Part shown: in pieces, positions 1 through 64,000 of the stretch
How the letters are laid out: the number at the start of each line of letters is the position of its first letter
Position numbering within the stretch: the first letter of the stretch is position 1
DNA from: Pontibacter ramchanderi
Lineage (GTDB): Bacteria > Bacteroidota > Bacteroidia > Cytophagales > Hymenobacteraceae
Assembly: GCF_002846395.1 (NCBI RefSeq)
Contig: NZ_PJMU01000002.1
Location: 1-64,000, forward strand
DNA: 64,000 bases
Reading direction: 5' to 3'
Position numbers and translations under genes: made by a program
The notes under the pieces: generated by a model
Databases searched by the model: none
What the model saw: the letters and a program-made list of their open reading frames with translations, nothing else
Told to the model about the DNA's origin: nothing

Positions 1-59
1 GCCGCCCTGCCGGCTAGCCTTGTCCCTCTCCCCCGAACCGTATGTCCGGGTTGGGAGTG

Positions 60-89
60 CAAAGGTCGCAAAAGTTTTCTTCTCCGCAA
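60..89 (-). promoter_or_regulatory. Strong Bacteroidota-type promoter, probably of an rRNA operon off the left edge
   Basis: On the minus strand TTG (87-89) is followed by a 19-base spacer and GACCTTTG (60-67). This matches the Bacteroidota -33/-7 pattern TTG-N19-TAnnTTTG with one mismatch. The bases after it, TTTGCACTCCC, resemble the start of 16S rRNA leader transcripts I know from Bacteroidota, and the downstream leader (positions 1-50) is GC-rich. Transcription would leave the window at position 1. That it drives an rRNA operon is inference; the rRNA genes are not in the window. Confidence 0.55.
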
Positions 90-433
90 GGGGTAACCGA
101 CAACTTTCAGCTTCCCCGCCCCCGGGTTCCGCCTAACTGCCTGACCGGCACGCCGAATAGTTTTTAAATTTCTTGCGGGTTTTTGCCTTCATTCCTCGAA
201 AGCTTATTCTAACCTACGAAGTGAAGAGCTAAGTCATATTTTCACCTATAGTATTCTCCGCTTCTACCGTTTTTATAGATGACGGCTTTGGGTTAACATC
301 TTTTATGGTTTCTGAAGTTCCAGCTATTTTTATTTTTATAAACTTTTTTCATACTGATTCTTCTATTCTATTTAAGAGATCAATTTTTTTCATACTCTTT
401 CGTTCTTTTATGCTGCATATTACACTTGTAAAG
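90..433. other. Spacer between rRNA-type promoter and purA terminator
   Basis: This stretch changes from GC-rich (90-170) to AT-rich (170-433). The T/A-rich part upstream of the promoter could serve as an activating upstream region. A 61-codon frame at 305-490 is low-complexity, rich in Phe/Ile/Leu, and runs into the purA terminator, so I do not call it a gene. I see no RNA gene here. Confidence 0.5.
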
Positions 434-468
434 AAAAAGGCTCCACCTATACTAGATGAAGCCTTTTT
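434..468 (-). terminator. Intrinsic terminator of purA
   Basis: A 9-bp perfect stem (AAAAAGGCT at 434-442 with AGCCTTTTT at 460-468) lies 18 bases past the purA stop codon. On the minus strand it is followed by a T-rich stretch. It closes the rsh-fur-STAS-purA unit before the outward promoter at 60-89. Confidence 0.75.
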
Positions 469-486
469 AATCAGTTCGAATTTTCG

Positions 487-1773
487 CTAGCTTATTCTTG
501 CTCGCTCTCTTCTTAGGGTGCTTTTTCTATCTGGCCCTACAGATGCGATCGTAATCGGCACTTGCAGGTGTTCTTCCAGGAATGACATATAATTGTTAAA
601 AGCTTCAGGCAAGGCATCCACTGATTCAATTTGATTCAGTTCTACTTTCCATCCTGGCAACTCTTCGTAAATTGGCTCTATATCACCTGTGTCAATTGAA
701 TGTGGCAACTGATCCGTAATCTCACCTGAGACTAGCTTGTAGTGTGTACATACTTTAATCGTATCAAATTCAGTCAACACATCCGCTTTCATCATGTTTA
801 GTTGCGTTACTCCATTCAGCATAATAGAGTATTTCAGGCTTGGCAAGTCTACCCAACCACAACGACGTGGTCTTCCTGTTGTAGAACCAAATTCGTTGCC
901 TGCCTTTCTGATTTGATCTCCTACTTCATCCAGCAACTCTGTAGGGAACGGCCCGCTTCCTACGCGTGTGCAGTATGCTTTGAAGATACCGTATACCTCA
1001 CCAATGTGCCGTGGCGCTACGCCAAGGCCTGTGCAGGCGCCGGCAACCAGTGTAGTAGATGAAGTTACGAAAGGATATGTTCCAAAGTCTACATCTAGTA
1101 GAGAACCTTGAGCCCCTTCAGCCAACACACGCTTACCGTTTTTAAGCGCTTCGTTGATCATGTACTCGCTGTCTACTAGTTTAAGGGTGCGAAGATAGTC
1201 CACTGCTTCAAAGAAAGCCTGCTCCTGCTCTCCAAGGTCTAGGCTCTGGCCGTAGAACTCCACTGTTTTTCTATGACGCTCTACCAATTTGTTATACCGG
1301 TCCTGAAAATCATCAGCCAGAATATCGCCAATTCGCATGCCCACTCTACCAATCTTATCCTGATAGGTTGGCCCTATGCCTTTTAGCGTCGATCCGATTT
1401 TACCAGAGCCTAGCGCCTCTTCCGAAACTCTGTCCAGTATTTTATGGGAAGGCAGTATGAGTGATGCCTTCTTAGAAATAAACAGGTTCTGCGTTGCATC
1501 CACTCCCCTGTCCTGTAACTTTTGCATTTCGGTACGGAACACAATTGGGTCGAGCACTACGCCGTTGCCAATAACATTCTGAATATGCGCGTGAAAAATA
1601 CCGGAGGGAATTTGATGAAGGACATGCTTGGTACCTTCGAACTCTAGTGTGTGTCCTGCATTGGGGCCTCCCTGGAAACGGGCCACAATGTCATAGGTAG
1701 GAGCCAGTACGTCGACGATTTTGCCTTTGCCTTCGTCGCCCCACTGCAGACCTATTAATATGTCAACTGCCAT
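487..1773 (-). CDS. purA: Adenylosuccinate synthetase
   Basis: Catalyses the GTP-dependent joining of IMP and aspartate to adenylosuccinate, the first committed step of AMP synthesis, in the cytosol. The 428-residue length is normal for the family. The N-terminal P-loop GDEGKGK is at residues 12-18, with catalytic Asp13 and His41 (in PNAGHT) at the positions used by the E. coli enzyme. The GTP/IMP-binding segment with TTGRPRRCGW is near residue 300, and the C-terminal guanine-binding VGPDRK motif is close to the end. It is the last gene of a minus-strand group (rsh, fur-like, STAS, purA) and starts 7 bases after the STAS stop. PurA is known in other bacteria to be inhibited by ppGpp, so its position downstream of rsh may be meaningful; that link is inference. 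Confidence 0.97.
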   Translation of the reverse strand: MAVDILIGLQWGDEGKGKIVDVLAPTYDIVARFQGGPNAGHTLEFEGTKHVLHQIPSGIFHAHIQNVIGNGVVLDPIVFRTEMQKLQDRGVDATQNLFISKKASLILPSHKILDRVSEEALGSGKIGSTLKGIGPTYQDKIGRVGMRIGDILADDFQDRYNKLVERHRKTVEFYGQSLDLGEQEQAFFEAVDYLRTLKLVDSEYMINEALKNGKRVLAEGAQGSLLDVDFGTYPFVTSSTTLVAGACTGLGVAPRHIGEVYGIFKAYCTRVGSGPFPTELLDEVGDQIRKAGNEFGSTTGRPRRCGWVDLPSLKYSIMLNGVTQLNMMKADVLTEFDTIKVCTHYKLVSGEITDQLPHSIDTGDIEPIYEELPGWKVELNQIESVDALPEAFNNYMSFLEEHLQVPITIASVGPDRKSTLRRERARIS

Positions 1774-1780
1774 TTATACG

Positions 1781-2131
1781 TTAGTAAATTGATTCCTTTA
1801 AGAATTGCGCTGCGAAGTTATCATTTTCTGCGATGGTAAAAATGGCATTGAGCTTCGTAACGATTAAAAGTTTGCGGATGTGGTCGGATGGCTTGATCAA
1901 AACCAACTCTCCTCCCCTGTTCCGAAACTTTGTGAGCAGCGAAACAAGTACACCCATCCCGCTGCTGTCCATGAACCGGACATTTGAAAGGTCCACAGCG
2001 CACAACATGACTTTACTTTCCACGTGCTCTTCAGCAACGGCCATCAGTTTCTGGGTGTCAGGCCCTGCAATCAGGTCTCCCTCCAGCCTGATGAAAAGGA
2101 CATCATCCTTTAGCTCTGTCTGATACTTCAT
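1781..2131 (-). CDS. STAS-domain anti-anti-sigma-factor-like protein
   Basis: A single STAS domain fills the 116 residues. The phosphorylation-site motif DSSGMG is at residues 55-60, so Ser56/Ser57 is the likely switch residue, as in SpoIIAA/RsbV. In the family, the unphosphorylated form binds an anti-sigma kinase and frees a sigma factor or other partner. No anti-sigma kinase or PP2C phosphatase gene is visible nearby, so the partner is unknown. Its start lies 29 bases inside the end of the upstream Fur-family gene, suggesting translational coupling, and purA follows after 7 bases. It could instead act as a scaffold unrelated to sigma control. Confidence 0.85.
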
Positions 2132-2603
2132 GCGGTTGTTCGGTTGCTTTTTTGGCGCGGCAATCGCCGCACACCCCGTAAAGATTAAGGGAATGGTGCA
2201 AGATATGAAAATTTAAAAGGTCGCCCACCATGGTCTGTATATTATGAATGCGCGGGTCGCAGAACTCCACCACCTTGTGACACTCTGTACAGATTACGTG
2301 GTCGTGCTGCCGGTAGCCATACGATTTTTCGTACTGTGCCAGGTTACGGCCAAACTGGTGCTTGCTTACAAGGTCATTCTCTACCAACAGATCAAGGGTA
2401 TTGTACACCGTGGCCCGGCTCACGCGGTAGTTCTTATTTTTCATGCTGATGTAGAGTGACTCCACATCGAAGTGCCCGGAGCGAGAGTAGATCTCCTCCA
2501 GGATCGCATAGCGCTCCGGTGTCTTGCGCAGGCCTTTGCTCTCCAGGTAAGCTGTGAATATCTTTTTTACTTGCTCTATTCTATTCTGCAGGTCTGTTAC
2601 CAT
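2103..2603 (-). CDS. Fur-family metal-dependent transcriptional regulator
   Basis: A 166-residue Fur/PerR/Zur-type regulator. The winged-helix DNA-reading segment is at about residues 55-80 ([10 protein letters not shown]). The dimerisation domain has the HDHVIC metal region at about 100-105 and two structural zinc CxxC pairs, Cys105/Cys108 and Cys145/Cys148. The family represses iron, zinc or peroxide-response genes when metal is bound; I cannot tell which subclass this is. The C-terminal 15 or so residues after the last CxxC are charged and variable. It sits 35 bases downstream of rsh and overlaps the STAS gene by 29 bases, an unusual place for a Fur protein since no transport gene adjoins it. 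Confidence 0.9.
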
Positions 2604-2638
2604 GTCGTTGCTCTCTTATATATAATAGGTATAGACAC

Positions 2639-4834
2639 TTAGTCGAACCGTTCGACGGTGAGTACACCTGTTACCTTGCCCATGCGCTGAATCAACTTGT
2701 CCAGGTGGCTGGTATCATTTACAAAAACCATTATGTTCCCCTCAAAGATTCCATCATGCGAATCTATTGTGATGGAGCGCATATTCACACGAAGGCTGTT
2801 TGAAATGATGCGCGTTAAATCATTCACCAAACCAACGCGGTCTGTTCCTTTGATGCGTATACCTGCCAGGAAGGCCAGTTCCTTCTGATCTGTCCATTTG
2901 GCTTTGATGATGCGGTTGCCATAGTTAGACATCAGTTCCATACCTTTCTTGCAACTGGTACGGTGAATTTCGATCCCGTCTTCCTCCGTTTCAAAGCCAA
3001 ACACTTCGTCGCCAGGTATAGGATTGCAGCACATGGCTACCTTATAGTTCATGTTTGAGGTGTTCTCCCCGATCACTAGCATGTCCGATGTAACACCACG
3101 AATCTTTTGTACTTCCCGATCAAAGGACTTAGGCTCGAGCATGGAGGCACCGCGCTCTGCCTGCGCAGAGAAAATGACTTCCTTGATATTTTTGATATCG
3201 ATATGGCCCGTTGCGATGCGGTAGTGCAGGTCCTGCACGGTAGGCACGTTGAAAAAGGCCATCAGCTTGTTCAGATTCCCCTGCGTTTCGGGCACTTTCA
3301 GGTATAGCAAGCGGCGTTCCAGCATGGCCTTCCCCTGCTCCGACTTATATTTGCGGTCTTCGCGCAAGTACTCTTTAATGCGGGAGCGTGCCTTGGACGT
3401 CACCACATAGTCCAGCCACTCTTCGTTCGGTTTCTGCTTCTGCGATGTCAGGATCTCCACCTGGTCGCCGTTGCGTAATCTGAAACTGAGTGGCACCAGT
3501 TTTTGGTTCACCTTGGCGCCAAGGCAGTGCAGCCCAATCTCTGAATGTATCTCAAAGGCAAAGTCCAGGGCTGTGGCGCGATCGGGCAGTATGAGCAGTT
3601 CGCCTTTGGGCGTAAAAACAAATACCTCTTCCACAAACAAGTTCTTGCGGAACTCATCCATGAACTCCAGTGCGTTGGCGGTGTTATTCTCCAGCATGTC
3701 GCGCACTTTGTTTATCCACATCTCCAGGCCAGACTCTCCACCGCTACCGTCGCTCTTATACTTCCAGTGGGCAGCATAACCTCGTTCTGCGATCTCGTCC
3801 ATCCGCTTGGTCCGTATCTGCACCTCTACCCACTGGCCAGACTTGCTCATGACCGTGGTGTGCAGCGACTCGTAGCCGTTGGCCTTTGGCGTGTTCACCC
3901 AGTCGCGCAGGCGGTCGGGATTTGGTTGGTAGAAGTCCGTTATAATAGAGTATACCTGCCAGCAGGCCGCCTTCTCATGCTCCAGTGGCACATCCAGTAT
4001 AATGCGTATGGCAAACAGGTCGTAGATCTCGTCGAACGTGATGTTCTGCTTCTTGATCTTCTTCAGAATGGAGTAGATCGACTTTGGCCTGCCTTTGATG
4101 TTGAACTTAAAGCCATGACGGCGCAGCTCTTCTTCAATCGGAGAAATGAAATCCTTGATGAACTTACCACGAGCACTGCGCGTCTGCCGTATTTTTGTGG
4201 AGATATCTTTGTAAGTATCGGTATCGGTATACTTCAGGTATAGGTCCTCCAGCTCCGACTTGATCGCATAAAGCCCCAGGCGGTGCGCCAGTGGCGCGTA
4301 CAGGTACATGGTTTCGGAAGCGATCTTGAGCTGCTTGTGGCGTGGCATGCTGTCGAGCGTACGCATGTTGTGCAGGCGGTCGGCCAGTTTGATCAAAATT
4401 ACCCGCACGTCATCGGACAGGGTAAGCAGCATCTTGCGGAAGTTCTCGGCCTGCTGCGATGTACCGTAATCGAACACGCCCGATATTTTGGTCAACCCCT
4501 CGATGATCCGGGCGACACTGGTGCCGAACTCACGCTCGATTTCCTCTACCTCCATGGCCGTGTCTTCTACCACATCGTGCAGCAGGGCCGCCACAATAGA
4601 GGTAGTCCCCAGCCCGATTTCCTCTACAGCGATCTGCGCCACGGCCAGCGGATGCAGAATATAAGGTTCACCTGATTTGCGACGCATGTCCTTATGCGCC
4701 TCGACAGATGTGTTGAAAGCTTTCTTGATAATTTTGGCGTCGTTATCCTTCAAGAAAGGCTTGGCGTGCCGAAGTAACCTGCGGTAGTGTCTAAGGATCT
4801 CTTTGCGTTCTGCTTCTGGATCGATCATGTTCAT
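2639..4834 (-). CDS. rsh: Bifunctional (p)ppGpp synthetase/hydrolase, RelA/SpoT family
   Basis: Makes and degrades the alarmone (p)ppGpp in the cytosol. At 731 residues it has the full long-RSH layout. The N-terminal hydrolase domain keeps its metal motif (His86-Asp87, then EDT at 90-92), so hydrolysis should be functional. The synthetase domain at about 235-355 carries the GRPKS substrate motif, the acidic YDLFAIRI strand and VEVQIRT. A TGS domain follows at about 405-465 and a C-terminal ACT domain at about 655-731. An intact HD motif argues for a Rel/SpoT-type bifunctional enzyme over a synthetase-only RelA. It heads the minus-strand cluster that ends with purA. A possible -7 element lies at 4936-4943, giving a leader of roughly 90 bases that contains a small hairpin (CAGGTT/AACCTG, 4861-4877). 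Confidence 0.96.
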   Translation of the reverse strand: MNMIDPEAERKEILRHYRRLLRHAKPFLKDNDAKIIKKAFNTSVEAHKDMRRKSGEPYILHPLAVAQIAVEEIGLGTTSIVAALLHDVVEDTAMEVEEIEREFGTSVARIIEGLTKISGVFDYGTSQQAENFRKMLLTLSDDVRVILIKLADRLHNMRTLDSMPRHKQLKIASETMYLYAPLAHRLGLYAIKSELEDLYLKYTDTDTYKDISTKIRQTRSARGKFIKDFISPIEEELRRHGFKFNIKGRPKSIYSILKKIKKQNITFDEIYDLFAIRIILDVPLEHEKAACWQVYSIITDFYQPNPDRLRDWVNTPKANGYESLHTTVMSKSGQWVEVQIRTKRMDEIAERGYAAHWKYKSDGSGGESGLEMWINKVRDMLENNTANALEFMDEFRKNLFVEEVFVFTPKGELLILPDRATALDFAFEIHSEIGLHCLGAKVNQKLVPLSFRLRNGDQVEILTSQKQKPNEEWLDYVVTSKARSRIKEYLREDRKYKSEQGKAMLERRLLYLKVPETQGNLNKLMAFFNVPTVQDLHYRIATGHIDIKNIKEVIFSAQAERGASMLEPKSFDREVQKIRGVTSDMLVIGENTSNMNYKVAMCCNPIPGDEVFGFETEEDGIEIHRTSCKKGMELMSNYGNRIIKAKWTDQKELAFLAGIRIKGTDRVGLVNDLTRIISNSLRVNMRSITIDSHDGIFEGNIMVFVNDTSHLDKLIQRMGKVTGVLTVERFD

Positions 4835-4935
4835 GCTAAAGCTAGAAAGTATTGGGTGCTCAGGTTGGGCGAACCTGTAGCCATACTTATGCTACTATAC
4901 TATAGGTATAAGTGAGGCAGTGTCGTTTTAAGTTT

Positions 4936-4943
4936 CAAATATA
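4936..4943 (-). promoter_or_regulatory. Possible -7 element for rsh
   Basis: On the minus strand TATATTTG matches TAnnTTTG exactly, about 100 bases before the rsh start. The expected TTG at the 19-base spacing is only partial (TGC), so the call is tentative. Confidence 0.35.
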
Positions 4944-5076
4944 CAGGAATATCCGCTTTCATGCACACAATGCCATGCGAATCGCGCAATATGTTGAGGT
5001 TGAACAACTAAGCCCAACGCCGCTGCACTATCTTGTAAAAAGGTGAAAAAATATCGGCTTTTTTTAGGCACACTGC

Positions 5077-5106
5077 TTGCATTTAAGTTTGGCGTTCGTA
5101 AATTTG
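5077..5106 (+). promoter_or_regulatory. Promoter of tRNA-Leu
   Basis: TTG (5077-5079), a 19-base spacer and TAAATTTG (5099-5106) give a perfect Bacteroidota -33/-7 promoter. The predicted start is about 20 bases before the mature tRNA end at 5133. It may also feed trigger factor if the terminator at 5223-5257 is leaky. Confidence 0.8.
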
Positions 5107-5132
5107 CACCATCATTACAAACAAGCACACAT

Positions 5133-5214
5133 GCGGATGTGGCGAAATTGGTAGACGCACTAGACTTAGGATCTAGCGCTGCGAGGCATGGGGGTTCGAG
5201 TCCCTCCATCCGCA
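5133..5214 (+). tRNA. tRNA-Leu (anticodon UAG)
   Basis: A complete 82-nucleotide class II tRNA. The acceptor stem is GCGGATG (5133-5139) with CATCCGC (5207-5213), followed by discriminator A at 5214. The anticodon stem CTAGA/TCTAG encloses the loop CTTAGGA, giving anticodon UAG, which reads CUA/CUN leucine codons. The variable arm is long, as expected for tRNA-Leu, and the T arm contains GGTTCGAGTCC. CCA is not encoded, so it must be added enzymatically. A spurious opposite-strand reading frame covers this gene and should not be annotated. Confidence 0.97.
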
Positions 5215-5222
5215 CACAAACG

Positions 5223-5257
5223 AAACCCTCAACAGCCCATGTTGGGGGTTTGTTTTT
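5223..5257 (+). terminator. Terminator after tRNA-Leu
   Basis: A 12-bp stem with one G-T pair (5223-5234 with 5240-5251), a 5-base loop and the T-run TGTTTTT. It begins 8 bases after the tRNA and ends 33 bases before the trigger factor start. Confidence 0.85.
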
Positions 5258-5290
5258 ACTAGATGTATCATCAATAAATTTTTGTAAGCC

Positions 5291-6613
5291 TTGAATATTA
5301 CATTAAATCAAACCGACGGCACTAACGCGCAACTGAAGGTAGTCCTGGAAGAGGCGGACTATGCTACTAAAGTTGACCAGCAAGTAAAGGAATTCAGCAA
5401 AAAAGCCCAGATCAAAGGCTTCAGACCTGGTAAAGTGCCTGCCGGCCTTATCAAGAAGATGTATGGCAAGAGCATACTCGTTGAGGCGATCAACAAACTT
5501 CTTCAGGAGGAAATCTCGAAGTATATCAAGGACAACGACGTGAAACTGCTGGGCGAGCCACTTCCGGAGCCAAGCCAGGAGAACATCGACTGGGACAACC
5601 AGAAAGACTTTGAGTTTAACTACGCAGTAGGTCTGCTGCCGGACTTTAACCTTCCGCTGGATAAAAGCGTAGAGGGTTACACTGTAGAGTTGGACCAGAC
5701 AACAGTAGACGAGGCTTACGAAAACCTCAAGCGCCAGTTTGGCAAAACCACTAACCCGGAGGATTCTGAAGCAGGTGACTTTATTTATGGTGACCTGAAG
5801 CAGGTAGAGGGCGAGTTCGAGTCTAAAACGCTAATCCCTACAAACCGTGTAGTAGAAGGCAAAGATCAGTTTGTAGGTGTGAAAGCCGGCGACGTGATCC
5901 GTTTCGATATCCGTAAGGCATTTGGCGACGACAACAGTGCGCTGGCCCACGTAACTGGCCTGAGCAAAGAAGTAGTGGCTGACCTGAACGGTGAGTTCGA
6001 ATTCACGGTAGAGAAAATCAACCGCACGGAGCCTGCTGAGCTGAACCAGGAGCTGTTTGACAAGCTGTTTGGCAAGGACGAGGTGAAGACCGAAGAGGAA
6101 TTCGACGCCAAGATCCGTGAGACCATCAAAGAAAATTACGACCGTGAGGCAGATAACCTGCTGTACCGCAATATCATTGATACTTTGGTAGACAACGTGG
6201 ACGTGGAGCTTCCTAACGAGTTCTTCAAGCGTTGGCTGCAAGTGACCAACGAAGGTCGCCTGACGACGGAACAAATCGAAGAGAACTTCGACAAGTACCT
6301 GAAGGAGCTGAAGTGGTCCATGATCAAGAACAAAGTGGTAGAAGAAAACGAGCTGAAAGTTACCAACGAAGAGGTAGTGAACAGCACGAAAGAGAAAATG
6401 TTGGCGCAATTCAACATGCCAGAAGTACCGGAAGAACTGGTAGAGAGCATGAACAACTATGCTAACCAGTATCTGCAGCAGGACAATGGCCGTAACTACA
6501 TCAATGAGTACGAGCAACTGCTGGCCGAGAAGGTGCTCGCTAAACTTAAAGAAAAGATGACTGTTGTAGAGAAGACTATCTCTACAGAGGACTTCAAGAA
6601 CATGTCGTTATAA
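5291..6613 (+). CDS. tig: Trigger factor, ribosome-associated chaperone
   Basis: Binds near the ribosome exit tunnel and shields nascent chains. The N-terminal ribosome-binding signature GFRPGKVP is at residues 43-50. The middle region (about 150-240), where E. coli has the prolyl isomerase domain, is divergent, as is usual in Bacteroidota. The C-terminal half is the helical chaperone domain. At 440 residues it is of normal length. The start is TTG at 5291: an in-frame stop lies just upstream at 5285-5287 and the next Met is near residue 59, past the start of conserved sequence, so no ATG start is possible. It is followed by a terminator and then clpP and clpX, the common tig-clpP-clpX order. 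Confidence 0.95.
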   Translation: MNITLNQTDGTNAQLKVVLEEADYATKVDQQVKEFSKKAQIKGFRPGKVPAGLIKKMYGKSILVEAINKLLQEEISKYIKDNDVKLLGEPLPEPSQENIDWDNQKDFEFNYAVGLLPDFNLPLDKSVEGYTVELDQTTVDEAYENLKRQFGKTTNPEDSEAGDFIYGDLKQVEGEFESKTLIPTNRVVEGKDQFVGVKAGDVIRFDIRKAFGDDNSALAHVTGLSKEVVADLNGEFEFTVEKINRTEPAELNQELFDKLFGKDEVKTEEEFDAKIRETIKENYDREADNLLYRNIIDTLVDNVDVELPNEFFKRWLQVTNEGRLTTEQIEENFDKYLKELKWSMIKNKVVEENELKVTNEEVVNSTKEKMLAQFNMPEVPEELVESMNNYANQYLQQDNGRNYINEYEQLLAEKVLAKLKEKMTVVEKTISTEDFKNMSL

Positions 6614-6636
6614 GAACGATTTATAATTTTTAACCT

Positions 6637-6668
6637 AAAAAGTCCTTTATTATTTAAAGGACTTTTTT
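6637..6668 (+). terminator. Terminator after tig
   Basis: AAAAAGTCCTTTA pairs with TAAAGGACTTTTT around a short loop and runs into T residues, 24 bases after the trigger factor stop. It separates tig from clpP. Confidence 0.85.
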
Positions 6669-6698
6669 ATTTTTGACCAAACCGTAAATCTAAACAAG

Positions 6699-7400
6699 AT
6701 GATGTTTAACAAAGACGAGTTCCGGAAATTTGCCGTAAAGGGCCAGGGCATGAGCGGCCTGGGCGTAGATCAATATATTAGCCATGTAGAAGGCAGAGCC
6801 ATGCATACCATCGAGAGTATGACACGTTCTGTAATTGAGGAACGTCCCACGAACTTCCGTGAGATCGACGTGTTCTCGCGCCTGATCATGGACCGTATTA
6901 TTTTCCTGGGGACCCAAGTAGATGATTTCATCGCCAACATTATTACAGCACAGCTGCTGTTTCTGGAGTCGGCCGATGCGAAGAAAGACATCCTGCTGTA
7001 CATCAATAGCCCGGGTGGCTCGGTATACGCAGGCCTCGGCATTTACGACACCATGCAGTATGTAAACCCGGATGTAGCGACGATCTGTACTGGTCTGGCT
7101 GCCTCAATGGGTGCCGTGCTGCTGGCCGGTGGTGCCAAGAACAAGCGCTCTGCCCTACCACATGCCCGTATCATGATTCACCAGCCGATGGGGGGTGCAC
7201 AGGGCCAGGCTTCTGATATTGAGATCACAGCCCGTGAGATCCTGAAGCTGAAGAAAGAGCTGTACGAGATTTTGGCGGAGCACTCTGGCAAGTCGTACCA
7301 GGAGGTATACGACAACTCGGACCGTGACTACTGGATGAAAGCCGAGGAGGCGAAAGAGTACGGCCTGATTGACGAAGTACTGCACCGCAAGAAAGACTAA
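6699..7400 (+). CDS. clpP: ATP-dependent Clp protease proteolytic subunit
   Basis: Serine peptidase that forms the tetradecameric degradation chamber used with ClpX or ClpA/C partners in the cytosol. The catalytic triad is visible: Ser137 in GLAASMGA, His161 in MIHQPMGG and Asp210 in DRDYWM. The protein has 233 residues, about 25 more than the mature E. coli enzyme. The extra N-terminal segment may be a propeptide or an alternative start; Met18 or Met35 would give a shorter form. The gene lies between terminators at 6637-6668 and 7422-7466, so clpP is probably transcribed on its own and not with clpX. Confidence 0.96.
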
Positions 7401-7421
7401 TTCCCTTTAGAGCAACATTTG

Positions 7422-7466
7422 ATAGCAAAGCCCATCCTATACCTAGGCATGGGCTTTGCTATTTTA
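7422..7466 (+). terminator. Terminator after clpP
   Basis: A perfect 14-bp stem (7422-7435 with 7449-7462) followed by TTTT. The 13-base loop contains TATACCT, the core of the dispersed motif described in the findings. Confidence 0.88.
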
Positions 7467-7670: not shown

Positions 7671-7700
7671 CCTTAGTAAGGTTTCAATTTTGTACCTTTG
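7671..7700 (+). promoter_or_regulatory. clpX promoter with a palindrome over the -33 region
   Basis: TACCTTTG (7693-7700) is an exact TAnnTTTG -7 element 52 bases before clpX. At the expected -33 position there is no TTG. Instead an 11-base perfect palindrome, CCTTAGTAAGG (7671-7681), covers it. The palindrome could be an operator or the reason for an activator-dependent promoter; that is inference. Confidence 0.5.
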
Positions 7701-8976: not shown

Positions 8977-8994
8977 GGTGTAGCAGGACTTAAT

Positions 8995-58400: not shown

Positions 58401-60729
58401 TACCAAGTGCGTCTTCCCATGGTCCGTCAGCACTTGCGCTTTGCTCCCAACGGTATGACTTAGCTGTAACGCCACCACTCACCGTGCTGGTTAATGCTGT
58501 ACCAGTGCCACCAGCTGTCTGGCAGTACTGTGTGTTGCCAGTGACAGTCCCTTGCGTAAGTGCAGGCGTAACTGTTATAGTGATTGGCTGGGGAGCAGAC
58601 TGGCAGCCATTTGTTACCCCAATCACAGTATAAGTGGTTGTGGCAGTGGGTGTAACTGTAACTTTAGGACCAGTTGACGCTGCAGGTATACCTGTACCCG
58701 ACCAAATATAGCTATCGGCACCAGATGCAGTTAGCTCGACAGCTTCACCCTGGCAAATTGCGTTTGCATCTGCGCTAACCTCAATGGTTGGGTTAGATTT
58801 TACAACCACTTCAAAGTTTGATGTTGTCAAAGCGCATTCTCCGGCAGACACAGTTCTTCGGTAAAAAGTTGAACCCACCACATTAGTCAATGGTGTATAG
58901 CTCTCTGTTGTTGCTACTTGTGTCCAGGTGCCTTCATTGCCAGTAGCACTTTGTTCCCACTTATAGGATTTAGTAGTACTGCCACCTCCAGAAGTTACTA
59001 CGGTTAGGGCAGTGGCTTGCGCATTATGACAGTATTCAGCTGTACCTGCTATATCTTGTTGTGTTAGAGCAGGTGTTACTTCAATTGTGATTGACTTTGG
59101 TGCAGAGGGACAGTTATCTGTGGTACCTATAACGGTATAGGTAGTAGTGACTGAAGGTGTTACAGTCAGTGTGCTACCTGTTGTGCCAGCCGCTATATCT
59201 GTACCAGACCAAACGTAAGAGTTTGCCCCAGCAGCTGTTAAAACAACAGATTCTCCCTGGCATACAGCAGTATTATCATTCTGCGCAGACACCGTAATAA
59301 CAGGTGTTGGCTTGATTGTGATAGTGTGAGTTGTGGCAGGGCCTGATTTGCCACACGTGTTGAAAGCTACTACTGATACTTGCACAGTGCCGGCAGTATT
59401 GCCAAAGTTTATATGTGCAGTTCTGGTATTGCCTCCAGAAGCAATGGTCGCATCACCTGACACAACTGTCCATTGGTAAGAAGTAACGTCACTGTTTGTA
59501 GGCACCGAAAATTCAATATCTGATTCGCCTGGACAAACTTCATCTACACCAGAAATAGTACCTGCAGGCTGCAATGCGATAACAGCCTTGCTGAACGCCT
59601 CTGACTCGCCATTGTCTTGAGCTGGAGCAGGATTCTTAACTATAATAGACAAATTTATTGCAGAAGCTAACTCGGCAGCAGTTAAAGAGGTTGTAAGGGT
59701 TGTAGAATTTGAGACTGTGGCTGCTCTTGACTGCCCATCTACTAACACAGTAGCCCCCACCACGAAGTTAGTACCAGTTATTGTTACTATAGTGGCAGGG
59801 TCACCAGCTGACAAACACCCGCTCACGCTAATAATAGCAGGTTTCTTATTGTTGACTGTAAAAGTGTTGCTTGTGACACTAGGGGCCCCTGCACTAGAGG
59901 CAGAAAGTGTATAGCCATTTCCTACTCTATTGATGCTATAGCCTGAGAAGGTAACTATACCATTTGTAATAGAGGAAGTGCCTCCTGAAAGATTGCCGCC
60001 ACTTGGATTGGATCCAAGCGCTAGGGAGATACTAGGAGTTAGCACTATATTACCAAACTGATCTCTAGCCTGAACTTGTACTGCAGGAGTTATGGGTTCA
60101 CCCAGCAGCACATCAGATGGCTGCGTGATGAAAGAAAGCTGTTTTACTGAACCTGCTTTTTGGGAGATAGAATGAGATAAAGTAGTAGGTAAACCTGAAA
60201 TTACAGCACCATTCGCTACCTCTACTCTTATGCTTCCAGTACCTGGCATATTACTTCCATCTACGGCCTGAACTTGAACACCTGAGATAATAATCTGCTC
60301 ACGCTTGTTTACTCCACTCACTACCAATGGGATAGTGATGGTTGATCCATCCGCACTATAAGTGGCCGATCCAACAGAGATAGAAGAATTTCCAGTATCA
60401 TTAAATAAAGATACAGCAGGCGTAACACCTGAACCCCTAAATCGCCACCCTACAGGTGCTCTCAACACAATATTACCACTTGATGCAAAATCGCCACTAA
60501 CTTCTTCTTGAATGGCAATTGTTCCTACTGTTGTATAACCCGGAGTTGTGAGTGTTGCATTCGCAGCTAAATCAGCAGAGACGGGAAAGGCCCCACCTCC
60601 CGTTAAGGTCACACCCACAGCCGCCATTAAATACATAGAACCAGCCAGAATCATCAGGCTGGTGAGGGCGATTACAAAGCTTTTGGTGCGGGATACATTA
60701 CTAATCAATTGTGTAAAATTCTTTCTCAT
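52489..60729 (-). CDS. Giant secreted multi-domain Ig/PKD-like protein with T9SS type A sorting domain
   Basis: A 2746-residue exported protein. I start it at 60729 (MRKNFTQL), which begins a signal peptide (about residues 1-38); a TTG at 60795 is less likely. In order: an N-terminal filament-like region; an invasin-type RDQFGN segment near 225; an IPT/TIG domain near 300-370; several Ig-like SprB/PKD-type modules with repeated SYxWEQS and YYRR motifs; seven units of an ~80-90 residue PKD-like repeat at about 1085-1735; a unique region; and further Ig-like modules. A C-terminal domain (LPVELLYFNATK) precedes the sorting domain AYPNPFHSEVEL, ending KLLKQ. It should be secreted by the type IX system and attached to or released from the cell surface. 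An adhesin or structural role is inferred from the modules; no catalytic domain was seen. Confidence 0.9.
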   Translation of the reverse strand: MRKNFTQLISNVSRTKSFVIALTSLMILAGSMYLMAAVGVTLTGGGAFPVSADLAANATLTTPGYTTVGTIAIQEEVSGDFASSGNIVLRAPVGWRFRGSGVTPAVSLFNDTGNSSISVGSATYSADGSTITIPLVVSGVNKREQIIISGVQVQAVDGSNMPGTGSIRVEVANGAVISGLPTTLSHSISQKAGSVKQLSFITQPSDVLLGEPITPAVQVQARDQFGNIVLTPSISLALGSNPSGGNLSGGTSSITNGIVTFSGYSINRVGNGYTLSASSAGAPSVTSNTFTVNNKKPAIISVSGCLSAGDPATIVTITGTNFVVGATVLVDGQSRAATVSNSTTLTTSLTAAELASAINLSIIVKNPAPAQDNGESEAFSKAVIALQPAGTISGVDEVCPGESDIEFSVPTNSDVTSYQWTVVSGDATIASGGNTRTAHINFGNTAGTVQVSVVAFNTCGKSGPATTHTITIKPTPVITVSAQNDNTAVCQGESVVLTAAGANSYVWSGTDIAAGTTGSTLTVTPSVTTTYTVIGTTDNCPSAPKSITIEVTPALTQQDIAGTAEYCHNAQATALTVVTSGGGSTTKSYKWEQSATGNEGTWTQVATTESYTPLTNVVGSTFYRRTVSAGECALTTSNFEVVVKSNPTIEVSADANAICQGEAVELTASGADSYIWSGTGIPAASTGPKVTVTPTATTTYTVIGVTNGCQSAPQPITITVTPALTQGTVTGNTQYCQTAGGTGTALTSTVSGGVTAKSYRWEQSASADGPWEDALGTNNAPSYTPSVATAGTVYYRRVVESGSCTSYGSPVAVTVTPSITNTITSDNQVVCSGETIAQIIGTVTGGKPGEVSYQWEQSANGTTGWENAPGASSALNYTPEAEVLTTSKTTYYRRKVISGNCTSFSEPVSVRIVAMPIAKILDGPNDYFCPPALSTLTAEEDPDYSYTWFRVAEEGSDVQVGTDQNTYTTNVEGSYYVVVRGENGCTSTSAPTQVKSTIMYTNIISGAQTICYNTVPSTLQGEESKSDLGIVTYEWQVSVDGTNFSKINNSNVQNLNLNTALTADRWYRRIARVGSGCSITSSPIKVTVKPLLRVTNLPGTTPAICNNTAYTFTPEGSEGSKTISWTRAAVQGISNDAASGTGGINETLVNTLTAPVNVTYVYTTSDDEGCTGPAQNLVVRVNPTPVLSSLLTPPAICGGTEFEYIANSATAGTTYTWVRKPAAGITTAAPESGNGARVEHVLTNTTADPIDVTYTYTLTANGCSNTQDVIVTVNPRPQLSSTLTPPAICSGATFSYTPASETDGTTFSWTRVAATGITSADPTSGTGNISQALVNTTVNPINVTYRVTTSANGCAGTTESVVVTVNPSPKLSTLLTGSVCSGSTFSYEPASATPGATFSWTRAASGGNTASSGAGNIDEVLTNSTTAPITVTYEITTRANGCSGEPQQLVVTVNPRPVLSSALTQTVCSGSAFTYTPASATTGATYTWTRAAVPGISNAAVTNGTGSVNETLVNTTANPIDVIYVYTTTANGCAGNSTQNLVVTVNPRPQLSSTLIPAAICSGTSFSYEPASATEGATFSWTRAAVTNISNPAVTTPVAGAVNENLVNTGTAPVTVTYRYTTTYASNGSSCAGTVQEVKVVVNPSPKLSSLLATSVCSGTPLSYTPASATTGTTFTWERLPATGITSDGAVSGSGPINQTLTNNTSNFINVTFRITSSANGCTGLTEDVVVQVNPKPVATFAAKIGTADAGSTIYSDGGNVTFTPTGATGGAFSVVSPAGLSGFTTSGSTATLNPCTALGEETSRQVTIRYTVSQGSGGNACSNFEDITYTLRRSNYTVIVLADPYPTCRGQVTEYTAYVYKDVTRIIYPYLADANGIAVDLNGNKLGDQTLPITNPDYPFPNKESMPKILYDNAWRYFQPKVEGGTLMPASNFNYQWTKNRTNFFGANAPTIQNAGLSSLDYYAVEVTSKNSNCAQPITSKMTNRMYTSATVNYEVALKTDKAVICQGEGITMTADLNDAFSFWGDISLTLYWMLDRGGVVSQLGQTEYKSGDNIQFPTPGPAGGFLDGDKVFIEFSSALDQYNNANKCARGFITNVVPITVVGAQTVNGGGAFCQGGVGVPVSLAGSQQNVFYQLKRDGQPVGSPVAGTGSALSFGNQTVAGAYTVEALANTAVASCLTFGPVNVYVTPQPVAHTLTAANNGEYCAGGNGVAITLGGSQSDVRYQLQRTVNGSTANVGEEVMGTGQPIVFPNQTVAGEYSVLATTVAQDGTVAACPLPMGKATIIINPIPTVAVNSPSTCAGTPVEVAATPIVGTAPFNYTWTVPAGATNPGNTSSFTTMVPGTYTVTVTDAKSCAMSAPVSTTVVVKELPTVTVNSVTMCANDDPTTIEAVASNGSGNYSYAWTVPNGVVNPGNVASFATKVEGQYTVLVTDNESCTSEPVVGTVTVTPMKTTVAKITAENANGPIEEPTNPIGINEPVTFTVSMLPNVNQADIIGYRWSVGSLASDIWAVKQTSSSNKFEMTPTTTEPFDVKAEVLTVGSACYIPIVAFTEQPIIPLPVELLYFNATKRGSDVVLDWATASELDNKGFEVQVSSDAKNFRALSFVESKVNTTSLKQVYSFVDKEKGKQGVRYYRLKQVDLDGKFEIFNIKAVHFDEVSMNKVKAYPNPFHSEVELSIDAELDGELQITVTTATGQQLLQRSVQVARGTNIEKLTLDPDLPRGVYIISTRMGDFNSHFKLLKQ
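55520..57470 (-). repeat. Seven tandem PKD-like coding repeats in the giant gene
   Basis: Seven consecutive units of roughly 250-290 bases. Each encodes L-S-S-x-L start, IC-S-G, YTPASAT, F-x-W-x-R, G-I-T/S, an N-T-T-x-P-I-x-V-T-Y strand and ANGC, and ends V-x-V-N-P-R/S/K-P. The linker alternates mostly between NPRP and NPSP. Units are clearly diverged at the DNA level, so the array is old and not a recent slippage product. Confidence 0.88.
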
Positions 60730-61236
60730 ATACTCAAGGGTTAAGGTGAGATGCGAGCACACTATTAGGGTTTTGGTGCTTGTTTTCTGATACAAAGGGC
60801 AAAAGGGATCATGCGAAGGCTCTTTAGGAGCTTCGGAGGGAGGCGCAGGGCTCTTTTGAGGAGCTATTCCGTAAGGATCAGGCTTTTACTGGCCCAGCAG
60901 GCACAGTTAGCCGGGTTTCATCATTGTGGCGGGGGAAAAAGAAGCATTGATGAGCCAGATAATGCTGGCTGGCATGGACGACCCGCTTTGAACAGGTACA
61001 TTCCTGGCAAACTTTCGGCTAAATTACTCACAGGTTTTACTATTAAGGGTAGCGTAATTAGCTTATGATACCTTTATTAAATATAAAAGTTTCATACTTA
61101 AGGTATAATTATAAGGAATTTACATAAATAAATTCTAAAAATTTAAAATAATAATCTAATAAATTGCACTGCAGTTTACCTGGTGTTAAATACTTATTTT
61201 TTTGCAGATTGACGCAATAAGGCCCTCCTTGTTATT
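60730..61236 (-). other. Long possible 5' leader of the giant gene
   Basis: About 500 bases between the giant gene start and a candidate -7 element. The half near the gene (60800-61000) is GC-rich with several short inverted repeats, such as CGAA-GCTC/GAGC-TTCG near 60815-60836 and CAGATAATGCTG near 60956-60967. The far half is very AT-rich. An 85-codon plus-strand frame (60811-61068) has no family resemblance and is more likely chance. I recognise no riboswitch class. Confidence 0.35.
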
Positions 61237-61244
61237 CAAACGTA
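61237..61244 (-). promoter_or_regulatory. Candidate -7 element for the giant gene
   Basis: On the minus strand TACGTTTG matches TAnnTTTG, but no TTG lies at the 19-base spacing. Tentative. Confidence 0.25.
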
Positions 61245-61439
61245 AATATGAATACTTATATATATTGGATTACAGGTATAAAAATTGCACTAAAATTGAT
61301 GTGTAATTTTTAAAAAACCACTTAAAAAATTCGCCTCTAAAAGCAGCGTTTCAGCAAAAGCTTACTTCAATGGCACCGTAATTTGCATTTGCAGAAAGTA
61401 ATTTGATCCTGTATATTGATAGCTGTAACTAAAGGCTTT

Positions 61440-62261
61440 ATGAAAAGAAGAACCCATCTCCGCATCCGCAAAACACACCGCTACCTGGGCCTGATCACAG
61501 GTATACAGTTCGTAATGTGGACCATCGGCGGCATCTATTTTAGCTTTAGCGATATAGATGAAATTCACGGAGATCTGCAGCGAAAGCCAGGCGGTATGGC
61601 TCTTCCACACAACACAGAACTGGTATCGCCTGCGATGGTAATGGCACAGTTGCCAACCAATGCCCTGGTCACGTCCGTCAAAGTGATCGACATCCTGGGG
61701 AAACCCCATTACCAGATCGCTTACCATGAAAACACTGACCATACCTCCGCTGCCAGCAGCGAAACAGGCCACAATCATGGCCAGGTGAGGGCTCGTACGC
61801 AGCTTGCCGAGGCGGCAACCGGCAAGCTGCGTCCTGCACTGACCGAGCAGGAGGCCATTGAACTTGCCCGTCAAAATTTTGTGGATGTGGCGGCAGTAGC
61901 TAAAACAGAATATGTTACAGATGAGAATATAAACGGACACCATGAGTACCGGGGTAGCTCCCTGCCTGCCTGGGCTGTTACCATGGAGCACCCTACCAAA
62001 ACCACCGTGTATGTCGCAGCCGAACAGGGCGTGGTCACCAAGTTCCGAAACGACAAATGGCGTGTGTTCGACTTCCTCTGGATGCTGCACACTATGGACT
62101 ACCAGGGGCGCGATAATTTTGGCAATCTGCTGCTTCGTGTGTTCTCCATCGCCGGTATCGTCACAATTCTGTCGGGTTTCGCGCTTTATTTTGCGAGCAG
62201 TGGTGCACGTCGCCATACTACGCAGCGGCAACAAGAGCACAGGCGCCCTATCATGCGTTAA
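61440..62261 (+). CDS. PepSY-domain membrane protein
   Basis: A 273-residue protein starting MKRRTHLRIRKTHRYLGL; I prefer this ATG over the TTG at 61416, which adds only eight residues. One N-terminal transmembrane helix (about residues 18-37), a periplasmic region with two PepSY-like halves (about 55-120 and 130-200) and a C-terminal helix (about 232-255) are visible. Conserved histidines next to each helix (RKTHRYLGL, WMLHTMDYQGRD) resemble PepSY-TM reductases of the iron-uptake type, suggesting heme or iron handling; this is inference. It is preceded by a long AT-rich region and followed by a terminator. Confidence 0.8.
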   Translation: MKRRTHLRIRKTHRYLGLITGIQFVMWTIGGIYFSFSDIDEIHGDLQRKPGGMALPHNTELVSPAMVMAQLPTNALVTSVKVIDILGKPHYQIAYHENTDHTSAASSETGHNHGQVRARTQLAEAATGKLRPALTEQEAIELARQNFVDVAAVAKTEYVTDENINGHHEYRGSSLPAWAVTMEHPTKTTVYVAAEQGVVTKFRNDKWRVFDFLWMLHTMDYQGRDNFGNLLLRVFSIAGIVTILSGFALYFASSGARRHTTQRQQEHRRPIMR

Positions 62262-62293
62262 ACTGCACCGGCATGCGGTATGTACCCTGCTTT

Positions 62294-62326
62294 AAGCCCT
62301 GCCCCGCCGGCAGGGCTTTTATTTTT
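62294..62326 (+). terminator. Terminator after the PepSY gene
   Basis: AAGCCCTGCC (62294-62303) pairs with GGCAGGGCTT (62309-62318), loop of 5, followed by a T-rich tail. Confidence 0.88.
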
Positions 62327-62399
62327 GGAAAAGGCGAGGCAAAAGGGGAAATTGCATAGCTAACCTATTATCACGATCACCCTTAAAACAACCGTACCC

Positions 62400-64000
62400 A
62401 TGAAGAAAATCTATGCGCTCGCCACGGCGGCACTGCTCTTTCTGAGCCAGTGGACCATGGCGCAGGCAGACCTCTCCTACTACCTCCCGCAGGACGTAAG
62501 CTACAACAAAGAATTTCCCACTCCTAAGGATATACTGGGCTACAACGTAGGCGAGTGGCATGTGAGCCATGACCAACTGGCCATGTACATGCGGCAAATG
62601 GCGGAACTCTCCGACCGTATTACCATTGAGGAGTATGCGCGCACCCACGAGAACCGCCCGCTATACCTGCTTACCATCACCTCACCGGAGAACCACAAAA
62701 ACATTCAGCGCATAAAAGAGCAGCATCGCCAGCTGACCGACCCGAACGCATCGGGCAAACTCGATATCAAAAACATGCCGGGCGTGGTGTGGATGGGCTA
62801 CAGCGTGCATGGCAACGAGCCGAGTGGTAGCAATGCCTCTTTGCTGGCTGTGTACCACCTGGCTGCTGCTCAGGGGCCTGAGATTGAGAAGCTACTCAAC
62901 GAAACCGTTATCCTGATTGATCCCTCCATTAACCCGGACGGGCTGAACCGATTTGCCAGTTGGGTGAACACGCACCGCGGCAAAAACCTGGTGACAGACC
63001 CAAACAGCGAGGAGTTTGCCGAGGCCTGGCCACGCGGCCGCACCAACCACTACTGGTTCGACCTGAACCGTGACTGGCTGCCCCTGCAGCACCCAGAGTC
63101 GAGAGGCAGACTGGCTAAGTTCCATGAGTGGAAGCCAAACGTGCTCACCGACCACCACGAAATGGGTACCAACTCCACTTTCTTTTTTCAGCCAGGTATA
63201 CCGAGCCGCAACCACCCGCTCACACCAGCCAAAAACTACGAACTAACCAAGAAAATCGCCGGCTTCCATGCCAAGGCATTAGATAAAATCGGGTCGTTCT
63301 ACTACACAGAGGAGAGTTTCGATGACTTTTATTACGGTAAAGGCTCCACTTACCCTGATGTGAATGGTGCCATCGGTATTTTGTTTGAACAGGCCAGTTC
63401 CAGAGGCCATGCGCAGGAAAGCGTTAACGGGGTGTTGTCCTTCCCTTTCACCATCCGCAACCAGTTTACCACTACCCTCTCTACCTTAGAGGCAATGCAG
63501 AACATGCGCGAGGAGCTGCTGGCCCATCAGCGTGATTTTTACCGCGATGCCCTGAAAGCCTCTGCCAAGGCTCCGTTCGGTGCCTATGTGTTCAGTGCCG
63601 AGAAAGATCCAGCCCGTGCCTACCACCTGGCGGAGATCATCCACCAGCACCAGATCGACATCTACCGTCCACAGGAAAAATTCACGATCAATAACGTAAC
63701 CTATACGCCAGAGAATAGCTACATCGTGCCAACCAACCAGCCACAGTACAAGCTGATCGAAGGAATGTTCGAGCGTCGCACTTCATTCCAGGACAGCCTC
63801 TTTTACGACGTGTCGGCCTGGACGCTGCCGCTTGCCTTTAACCTGGAACACGCCAACCTCAAATCCGGCCAGTTCAAGCGCGGCATGCTTGGCCAGAAGC
63901 TCACCTCCGTTGACTTCCCGACCGGGCAAGTAGTAGGTGGCAACAGCGCTTACGCTTATGCCTTTGAATGGCACGGCTACTATGCCCCAAGAGCGCTGAA
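62400..64000 (+). CDS. Secreted M14-family zinc carboxypeptidase-like protein, cut by the window end
   Basis: The frame is open from ATG at 62400 to the window edge (533 codons seen; the rest lies outside). A signal peptide (about residues 1-21, ending MAQA) is followed by the M14 catalytic domain: zinc ligands His137 and Glu140 (HGNEPSG) and the third His in DHHEMG near 254. NPDGLNRF and RGRTNHYWFDLNRDW match the layout of the peptidase at 48963-51509. The likely catalytic Glu is in GILFEQASSRG. Overall sequence is clearly diverged from the other copy, so the two are distant paralogues. Substrate is unknown. Confidence 0.9.
   Translation, partial: MKKIYALATAALLFLSQWTMAQADLSYYLPQDVSYNKEFPTPKDILGYNVGEWHVSHDQLAMYMRQMAELSDRITIEEYARTHENRPLYLLTITSPENHKNIQRIKEQHRQLTDPNASGKLDIKNMPGVVWMGYSVHGNEPSGSNASLLAVYHLAAAQGPEIEKLLNETVILIDPSINPDGLNRFASWVNTHRGKNLVTDPNSEEFAEAWPRGRTNHYWFDLNRDWLPLQHPESRGRLAKFHEWKPNVLTDHHEMGTNSTFFFQPGIPSRNHPLTPAKNYELTKKIAGFHAKALDKIGSFYYTEESFDDFYYGKGSTYPDVNGAIGILFEQASSRGHAQESVNGVLSFPFTIRNQFTTTLSTLEAMQNMREELLAHQRDFYRDALKASAKAPFGAYVFSAEKDPARAYHLAEIIHQHQIDIYRPQEKFTINNVTYTPENSYIVPTNQPQYKLIEGMFERRTSFQDSLFYDVSAWTLPLAFNLEHANLKSGQFKRGMLGQKLTSVDFPTGQVVGGNSAYAYAFEWHGYYAPRAL

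Follow-up and report, generated by a model that had tools for sequence, protein, structure and literature searches.

Chi sites are short, asymmetric and species-specific words enriched in the core genome, and the uptake signal sequences (USS) of the Pasteurellaceae are known in lineage variants. Among the DNA uptake sequences (DUS) of the Neisseriaceae, two dialects are described in the single genome of Simonsiella muelleri, and overlapping dyads are reported for the DUS of Simonsiella (PMC3630211); the highly iterated palindromes (HIPs) of cyanobacteria reach densities of about 1,000-2,000 per Mb (PMC4390886). Competence is on record in Bacteroidota (PMC8459023, PMC8383284, PMC6533540); in Riemerella the machinery is described as partly unknown, transposon mutants having pointed to ComEC, DprA, ComF and RecA together with four proteins without known competence homologues; among the Riemerella competence genes are those for a DUF5689 protein, an outer-membrane PF13620 protein, a periplasmic HHH protein and a DUF1343 protein (PMC8459023). 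The stretch treated here, called the window, comprises positions 1-64000 of contig C2 in the 4.43 Mb genome of Pontibacter ramchanderi (14 contigs; genome label G000), and carries many copies of a dispersed word whose core is AGGTATA, or TATACCT on the opposite strand, and whose longer form is CAGGTATAG/CTATACCTG. By analogy with described systems, the word may be a genome-wide, DNA-uptake-like self signal of Pontibacter, a reading that is given a probability of roughly 0.43; among the listed hits of searches limited to open-licence PubMed Central papers, none described it or any other iterated word in Pontibacter or Hymenobacter.

Measured against a second-order Markov model, the window holds 98 copies of the core (46 forward and 52 reverse) where 12.6 are expected, an excess of about 8-fold, and 33 copies of CAGGTATAG/CTATACCTG where 0.9 are expected, about 37-fold. 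A sequence-only reading of the window had called the word far above chance on both strands and in various reading frames; the excess proved larger than claimed, each of the 17 positions named there has a genuine core copy no more than 10 bases away, and its hand count of 30-35 copies in the first 22 kb fell slightly short of the actual 38. Over the whole genome CAGGTATAG occurs 2,242 times (1127 forward, 1115 reverse), while the reversed word, which served as the negative control, occurs 10 times (5 on each strand). The same reading had proposed a k-mer count as a check. In 404 kb of G000, with the all-N masked stretches L026-L028 left out of this and later counts, AGGTATA is the most over-represented 7-mer (711 copies against 71.6, z 75), and the remaining 13 listed top 7-mers overlap it or differ from it by one base; the top 8-mer is AGGTATAG (386 against 13.4) and the top 10-mer CAGGTATAGC (115 against 1.5). 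Single-base variants of the core are mostly near expectation in the same 404 kb, the main exceptions being AGGTATG (175 against 76) and GGGTATA (144 against 47); a third, AGCTATA (102 against 45), can overlap genuine AGGTATA copies. The consensus H-AGGTATA-V is asymmetric with soft flanks and forms no palindrome of the HIP kind: the base 5' of the core is C at a frequency of 0.50 and rarely G (0.07), the base 3' of it is G at 0.54 and rarely T (0.04), and the next is C at 0.44. Orientation is balanced, with 700 and 684 copies of AGGTATA in 804 kb of G000, and this total of 1,384 places the density in the HIP-like range.

In line with the claim made for the window, codon usage does not account for the excess. 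Coding copies number 529 against a mean of 57.2 and a maximum of 68 in 20 synonymous shuffles, and all six strand and phase classes are filled at 4.6 to 24 times the synonymous-codon shuffle; because every class is enriched, an explanation by codon pairs in one frame, which had been named as the outcome that would overturn the claim, is excluded, and codon usage or a single reading frame was rejected as a candidate cause. Intergenic density is about twice that in genes. For the counts of intergenic classes, spacing and pairs, the stretches L016, L019, L021 and L156 of G000 and L137 of G001 were left out. In G000 the density per kb is 5.0 in convergent spacers, 3.8 in co-directional spacers, 2.9 in divergent spacers and 1.5 in coding sequence; the corresponding values for AAGTATA, the equivalent word of the congener G001, are 4.6, 2.9, 3.0 and 1.1, and a small set from genomes with a third spelling (dialect C, below) gives 10.7, 14.0 (from 1.0 kb only), 7.4 and 2.2. 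A promoter element is not supported, since convergent spacers hold no promoters of their flanking genes yet are the densest class in G000 and G001, co-directional spacers leading in the small dialect-C set. The sole inverted pair that recurs often is an overlapping dyad at offset 3, and each of the three dialects has more sites in such dyads than expected (48 against 32.5, 20 against 4.0 and 88 against 35.1; L016, L019, L021 and L156 left out, L137 kept). A terminator hairpin was likewise rejected as a candidate, frequent non-overlapping inverted pairs not having been found.

The genus as a whole was surveyed in 50 Pontibacter genomes, a carrier of a dialect being a genome with at least 2,000 copies of an 8-mer. 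By this threshold 39 of the 50 are carriers, with both orientations about equal: dialect A, AGGTATAG, is found in 12 genomes, dialect B, AAGTATAA, in 23, and dialect C, AACTATAG, in 7, and three genomes (G026, G032 and G065) carry both B and C. The 7-mer cores AGGTATA (A), AAGTATA (B) and AACTATA (C) differ by one base between A and B, one between B and C, and two between A and C. Eleven genomes reach 2,000 copies with none of the three words; weaker excesses remain in some of them, for example G007, G002, G033 and G036. When 16 congeners low in CAGGTATAG were sampled at 20 kb each, AAGTATA was a leading word in 10 and AAGTATA together with AACTATA in 2, while G036 displayed a weak GGTATA word and 3 had no clear word; the named priA loci have the same kinds of leading word, P. 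indicus and P. roseus going with dialect A, P. mucosus with B and P. burrus with C. In 22 genomes from other genera of the order there is little CAGGTATAG, the highest counts being 162 in G040 (control 61) and 76 in G038 (control 13).

Further spellings are possible. The locus L073 of Pontibacter sp. E15-1 combines GGGTATGG/GGTATGG with AGGTATA, and L046 of G036 displays GGTATAA, GGTATAG and CGGTATA; either could be a fourth dialect. In G019, a dialect-B genome, a CRISPR-like array with a spacing of about 66 bp begins near position 1079 of L215 (G019:C1:1943001-1949000); its 30-letter repeat contains AGGTATAG and so inflates the forward AGGTATAG count of that genome. Other iterated words appear at Hymenobacter and Adhaeribacter priA loci (L083, L095, L084, L089, L092, L103, L099, L111, L125 and L080; 18-22.5 kb each), in a survey of 47 loci chosen out of 80 where the null maximum z was about 4-6. 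Observed against expected, these are GGGGTAG (25 against 3.4 and 31 against 2.4), GGGTAGGG (14 against 0.5), CCCTAGGG (24 against 0.7), CCTAGG (62 against 11.8 and 64 against 11.1), GGGGCCC (65 against 9.7) and AATATT (162 against 45.9). CCTAGG is kept above background between L089 and L092 (23/29 against 0.47), with no such excess between L089 and L103 (3/16) or L092 and L103 (3/20); GGGCCC is weakly above background between L099 and L125 (45/61 against 0.53), and aligned copies of GGGGTAG are too few for a conservation count.

Relationships within the genus were read from PriA, whose gene also served as the anchor for aligning 22.5 kb orthologous loci. The PriA of the window shares 98% identity with its Pontibacter indicus counterpart, and the PriA tree groups it with P. 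indicus, P. lucknowensis and their close relatives in a set of eight rows (support 100/99). With dialect labels taken from about 22 kb per species, dialect B occurs in both deep Pontibacter branches, dialect A comprises one clade and the odd strain E15-1, dialect C lies beside the mixed genomes, and motif-free lineages branch from within the motif-bearing ones. From this distribution we infer that dialect B was ancestral and that the signal has been lost repeatedly.

Conservation in neighbouring genomes and variable flanks had also been proposed as checks, and both were found. At all 10 dialect-A priA loci compared with the window, cores are intact at a frequency of 0.44-0.72 against 0.24-0.35 for all 7-mers; single-locus binomial p values range from 0.02 to 1e-5, with the reservation that neither neighbouring copies nor related loci count as independent. 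(L073 was placed in group N for this comparison and left out of the pooled conversion and footprint counts.) In the pooled alignment, for which 3 of the 10 A loci and 5 of the 15 B loci were the queries against all others, within-dialect retention is 0.70/0.52/0.56 against a background of 0.30/0.22/0.27, or about twofold. Identity is 0.88 in the core and 0.88 and 0.85 at the adjoining bases, and it drops to 0.72-0.80 farther out to 40 bases; control 7-mers of the same composition display a flat 0.83-0.87. The footprint is thus 9 bp wide and its surroundings are under weak constraint, a pattern that a local effect of mutation or repair would not be expected to leave.

Sites are also respelled in place between dialects. 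Aligned sites that read AAGTATA in a query read AGGTATA in 231 of 1,249 cells from A genomes and in 14 of 647 from motif-free genomes, these cells not being independent; in the reverse direction, AGGTATA sites read AAGTATA in 104/622 cells of B genomes, 16/102 of mixed genomes, 11/134 of C genomes and 6/238 of motif-free genomes. AAGTATA sites read AACTATA in 18/324 cells of C genomes against 0/647 in motif-free ones, and conversion between A and C, two bases apart, was not seen in the aligned cells (1/134 and 1/636). Counted as unique sites, a measure in which 15 B or 10 A genomes are set against 7 motif-free ones and the chances per site are therefore unequal, 6/20 of the sites in the window read AAGTATA in some B genome against 0/12 in motif-free genomes; converted sites at other loci, with the motif-free value in brackets, are 7/35 (1/21) for L049, 7/23 (1/15) for L052, 12/35 (2/29) for L079, 11/42 (2/31) for L107 and 8/36 (3/33) for L063. 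The conversions are mostly synonymous or intergenic; some alter an amino acid. Mixed genomes share their B words with B genomes at 0.43 (background 0.18) and their C words with C genomes at 0.63 (background 0.26).

The word is sparse on most of the second-replicon stretches read. Of nine such stretches from the motif-bearing genomes G001, G019 and G020, eight fall below half the density of the chromosome. The second contig of G001 (116 kb) has 11 copies in 60 kb, its chromosome 1.35 per kb; the second contig of G020 has 17 in 53.8 kb, its chromosome 1.05-1.30 per kb; and three 20 kb stretches on the second contig of G019 hold 4, 20 and 7, with 0.75-1.10 per kb on the chromosome. From their size and number, these second contigs are presumably plasmids. 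On the chromosome of G000, two stretches are motif-poor, with 9 (L019) and 10 (L156) copies per 20 kb where the other 35 stretches have 20-50; L019 is a glycosyltransferase cluster with a GC content of 0.40, and L156 is a restriction and helicase stretch with a GC content of 0.43. Positions 5275-19935 of L156 (G000:C1:1400001-1420000) encode an Eco57I/TaqI_C-type methyltransferase as well as helicases and an SMC-like ATPase; the stretch looks like a restriction or defence island. Within the window, the act/cta block that had been described as sparser makes up 26% of the length and has 9 of the 98 copies, with 89 elsewhere (binomial p 4e-5), bearing that description out.

The word is kept while its surroundings drift and is respelled in relatives, and for these reasons it behaves like a mark of self-recognition. 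Its asymmetry, permissive positions, few-base dialects, mixed genomes, overlapping dyads and low density on most second-replicon stretches read match the DUS dialects of the Neisseriaceae, which is why an uptake-type signal is considered the most likely of the readings weighed here. The sequence-only reading had likened the word to dispersed signals such as HIP1 or DNA uptake sequences; a dispersed signal is supported by the top-ranked excess, the same-dialect conservation and the drifting flanks, and between the two kinds the evidence leans towards uptake. As a mechanism, one sequence-specific DNA-binding protein would read the asymmetric 9 bp H-A-(GG/AG/AC)-TATA-V and would favour own-kind chromosomal fragments in natural transformation; word-bearing fragments would replace word-less homologous alleles, and copies would accumulate where coding constraint permits. 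A shift in the specificity of the reader would rewrite many old sites in place by way of a mixed-phase genome, and loss of the reader, as may have occurred in the word-free lineages, would leave the copies to decay.

If the signal serves uptake, a type IV pilin is an unlikely receptor for it, since no full-length match to the type IV pilus ATPase (PF00437) was found in the genus. Matches above the cut-off occur in 3 of 50 genomes when up to 31 of up to 45 candidates per genome are scored, and every one is partial, covering about 40-65 of 370 positions; because of this, type IV pili appear, from sequence searches, to be absent from the genus. The surroundings of comEC were compared over 20 kb in 20 genomes chosen for the purpose, 10 motif-bearing ones with at least 2,000 copies of a word and 10 motif-poor ones below that level. 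PhoH-like and acetyltransferase genes upstream of comEC were found in all 20 by tblastn; an AIR-synthase-like kinase gene lies just downstream in 9 of the 10 motif-poor genomes and 1 of the 10 motif-bearing ones, the comEC neighbourhood of the tenth motif-poor genome ending at a contig edge. Single stops interrupt comEC in G009 (G009:C76:160505-161305) and G021 (G021:C1:2771217-2771876), of which G021 has a low dialect-B count of 2,537.

Several results weigh against an uptake-type signal. ComEC is present in all 50 genomes and does not separate motif-bearing from motif-free ones, and G009, with its interrupted comEC, retains a full dialect-A count of 5,041. The AIR-synthase-like difference is one of gene order and not of presence, because at least six other motif-bearing species carry a homologue elsewhere (six species of dialect B have it at the priA locus). 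Known readers of DUS are unlikely to apply here, as a full-length PF00437 match was not found in the 50 genomes, pilins not having been searched for; reports of competence in Pontibacter were not met, no search having been aimed at them. The non-overlapping inverted pairs typical of DUS at terminators were not seen in G000, G001 or the dialect-C set, and spacing is not even, being random to slightly clustered (coefficient of variation 1.21 in G000 and 1.03 in G001). Two of the 8 single-query counts lack an excess of conversion (L076 with 2/15 against 3/25 motif-free, L064 with 2/20 against 2/26). One second-replicon stretch of G019 (L179, the one with 20 copies) is not depleted, and low GC content does not by itself bring depletion (G000 L021, GC 0.40, 22 copies; G030 L190, GC 0.345, 55 copies). 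In the motif-poor genome G002, the one second-contig stretch read, L184 (G002:C2:1-20000), counted separately from the nine above, is enriched in AGGTATA (14 against 2.8) and AAGTATA (9 against 1.9), the chromosomal stretch L030 giving 5 against 5.3 and 9 against 4.3; a second replicon that came from a dialect-A host may account for this.

Next in rank, and unlikely, is a HIP-like origin, in which the word would be the recognition site of a methyltransferase, either a by-product of methylation-coupled mismatch repair, as in the model of Elhai for cyanobacteria, or a site kept for methylation. HIP1 and alternate HIPs replace one another among cyanobacteria and track methyltransferases (PMC4390886), the density is alike at about 1-2 per kb, and methylase families of Type I/IIG kind are present in most genomes of the genus (PF02384 in 50/50, PF07669 in 47/50), the candidates in G000 being two PF01555 genes, one PF02384 gene and one of the Eco57I type. 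Being asymmetric and soft-flanked instead of palindromic, the word is not a HIP; moreover, none of the tested families follows the dialects, and C5, N6/N4, D12, type I and Eco57I-type methyltransferases are not supported as a common cause. C5 methylases are found in 23/50 genomes and are absent from G000, PF02086 is found in 13/50, and PF01555 is found in 31/50, being absent from G003 and G011 of dialect A and from G060, G066, G030 and G017 of dialect C. The Eco57I-type gene of G000 sits in the motif-poor L156. G061, with 4,958 copies of AAGTATAA, has no PF01555, PF00145 or PF02086, and its two matches to PF02384 reach only 23 and 20.6 bits, an argument weakened by its one PF07669 (Eco57I-type) match above the cut-off at 41 bits. 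In a variant of this explanation, a different and unrelated enzyme possibly acts in each dialect.

Ranked third, and improbable by a similar measure, is a chromosome-wide site for an abundant architectural or segregation protein, kept for the organisation of the nucleoid. Thousands of orientation-neutral sites that are sparse on most second-replicon stretches would suit such a protein, as would the high density that G000 and G001 show in convergent spacers, the least constrained positions, and a changing protein could give rise to the dialects. Against it, word-free lineages nested in the genus would make the site dispensable, the random to clustered spacing gives no sign of a need for spacing, and no binding protein was identified, a search for one not having been made. 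A Chi-like hot spot recognised by an enzyme of the AddAB/RecBCD type has a slim chance: the word is short, asymmetric, apparently enriched in the core genome and species-specific, but polarity of the Chi or KOPS type was rejected since copies on the G-rich strand and the other show no replication-strand bias (712 against 672 in 804 kb of G000; 273 against 266 in 400 kb sampled around the complete G001 chromosome), and the rank correlation with GC skew that is present in G000 (rho 0.52, p 0.0009) is not in G001 (0.09, p 0.70). A by-product of codon usage, local mutation bias or repeats, for which only a giant repeat gene (L016, below) and the G019 array speak, can be set aside in view of the six enriched phases, the denser spacers, the near-expected variants, the 9 bp footprint and the reversed-word control.

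Coordinates of the copies in the window are collected in Table 1. A cytochrome c gene lies at 36875-38143, within the act/cta block, and an open frame of 2,768 codons occupies 52489-60795 on the reverse strand. Beyond the window, positions 2679-13013 of L016 (G000:C2:64001-84000) hold a giant gene with a repeat period of about 234 bp and a run of same-strand motif copies.

Table 1. Features of the 64,000-nucleotide window. The 65 AGGTATA cores outside CAGGTATAG span 992..63200 and are given by the first base of the 7-mer on the forward strand.
Feature	Position	Strand	Remark
priA	43210..45741	+	anchor for aligning orthologous loci
act/cta block	21728..38143	-	alternative complex III / cytochrome oxidase, name taken from the sequence-only reading; motif-poor, 9 copies in 16.4 kb
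CAGGTATAG	3013..3021	+	
CAGGTATAG	3299..3307	+	
CAGGTATAG	4235..4243	+	
CAGGTATAG	10263..10271	+	
CAGGTATAG	11255..11263	-	
CAGGTATAG	12078..12086	-	
CAGGTATAG	13714..13722	+	
CAGGTATAG	14122..14130	+	
CAGGTATAG	15664..15672	-	
CAGGTATAG	15697..15705	-	
CAGGTATAG	16535..16543	-	
CAGGTATAG	17649..17657	+	
CAGGTATAG	17860..17868	-	
CAGGTATAG	18767..18775	+	
CAGGTATAG	19682..19690	+	
CAGGTATAG	25456..25464	+	
CAGGTATAG	26049..26057	+	
CAGGTATAG	30989..30997	-	
CAGGTATAG	42658..42666	-	
CAGGTATAG	43196..43204	-	
CAGGTATAG	44275..44283	-	
CAGGTATAG	45881..45889	-	
CAGGTATAG	45945..45953	-	
CAGGTATAG	48241..48249	-	
CAGGTATAG	48369..48377	-	
CAGGTATAG	48925..48933	-	
CAGGTATAG	51206..51214	-	
CAGGTATAG	51354..51362	+	
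CAGGTATAG	51692..51700	-	
CAGGTATAG	51805..51813	-	
CAGGTATAG	51961..51969	-	
CAGGTATAG	53759..53767	+	
CAGGTATAG	62661..62669	-	
other AGGTATA cores, forward	2627 4904 7303 8484 11280 12607 16431 17894 17924 18713 26587 36156 40827 40964 43064 46713 46727 47300 48254 48824 49045 51873 52428 53854 54762 56268 56964 57396 58684 61101 61274 61499 63194	+	
other AGGTATA cores, reverse	992 2858 3951 7438 8619 9087 12173 12224 12266 13109 13617 13992 16624 23650 27940 28686 34920 39881 39893 39899 39926 42295 45856 45978 46184 51624 51837 52865 55675 56242 57055 58687	-	

Most of the genus carries a strong, dialect-forming signal, and its mixed-dialect genomes offer a rare view of a signal being respelled. 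If it is an uptake signal, one may ask by what means bacteria that lack type IV pili select DNA, and it would constitute a natural and testable barrier to gene exchange among close species. In practice, laboratory transformation of these environmental species could depend on whether the incoming DNA carries the right word. If it is not, a new sort of site-specific genome maintenance would be indicated. It is proposed, tentatively and with more doubt than attaches to the uptake role itself, that the signal could represent a third independent origin of sequence-specific uptake after the Neisseriaceae and Pasteurellaceae, this one in Bacteroidota, with a receptor other than a type IV pilin, at least three dialects in one genus, switches caught mid-course and, perhaps, other words in sister genera, Hymenobacter among them.

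Compared with known systems, the Pontibacter word resembles Chi as a short asymmetric word, apparently of the core genome, and differs from it in having no replication-strand polarity. With the USS of the Pasteurellaceae it shares an asymmetric 9 bp word spread genome-wide (PMC1626085, PMC1939737); the words are unrelated, and the USS are predicted to be read by a type IV minor pilin (PMC12616744). HIP1 and the alternate HIPs of cyanobacteria are alike in density, in replacement by other words in relatives and in sporadic loss, and unlike in being palindromic and tied to methyltransferases (PMC4390886), whereas the Pontibacter word is asymmetric and goes with none of the methyltransferase families tested. 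The word is not classed as a DUS, because neither a type IV pilus reader, judged by its ATPase, nor inverted-pair terminators were found; the DUS of the Neisseriaceae are 10-12 bp against 9 bp here and belong to another phylum and an unrelated word, a reader of the ComP type is probably lacking in Pontibacter given the partial ATPase matches, and uptake is a putative role for the Pontibacter word. The likeness to DUS is as follows: both comprise thousands of short asymmetric words on both strands at permissive positions, in Pontibacter apparently of the core genome as well, both form dialects along the phylogeny, and both include cases of two dialects in one genome and overlapping dyads (PMC3630211).

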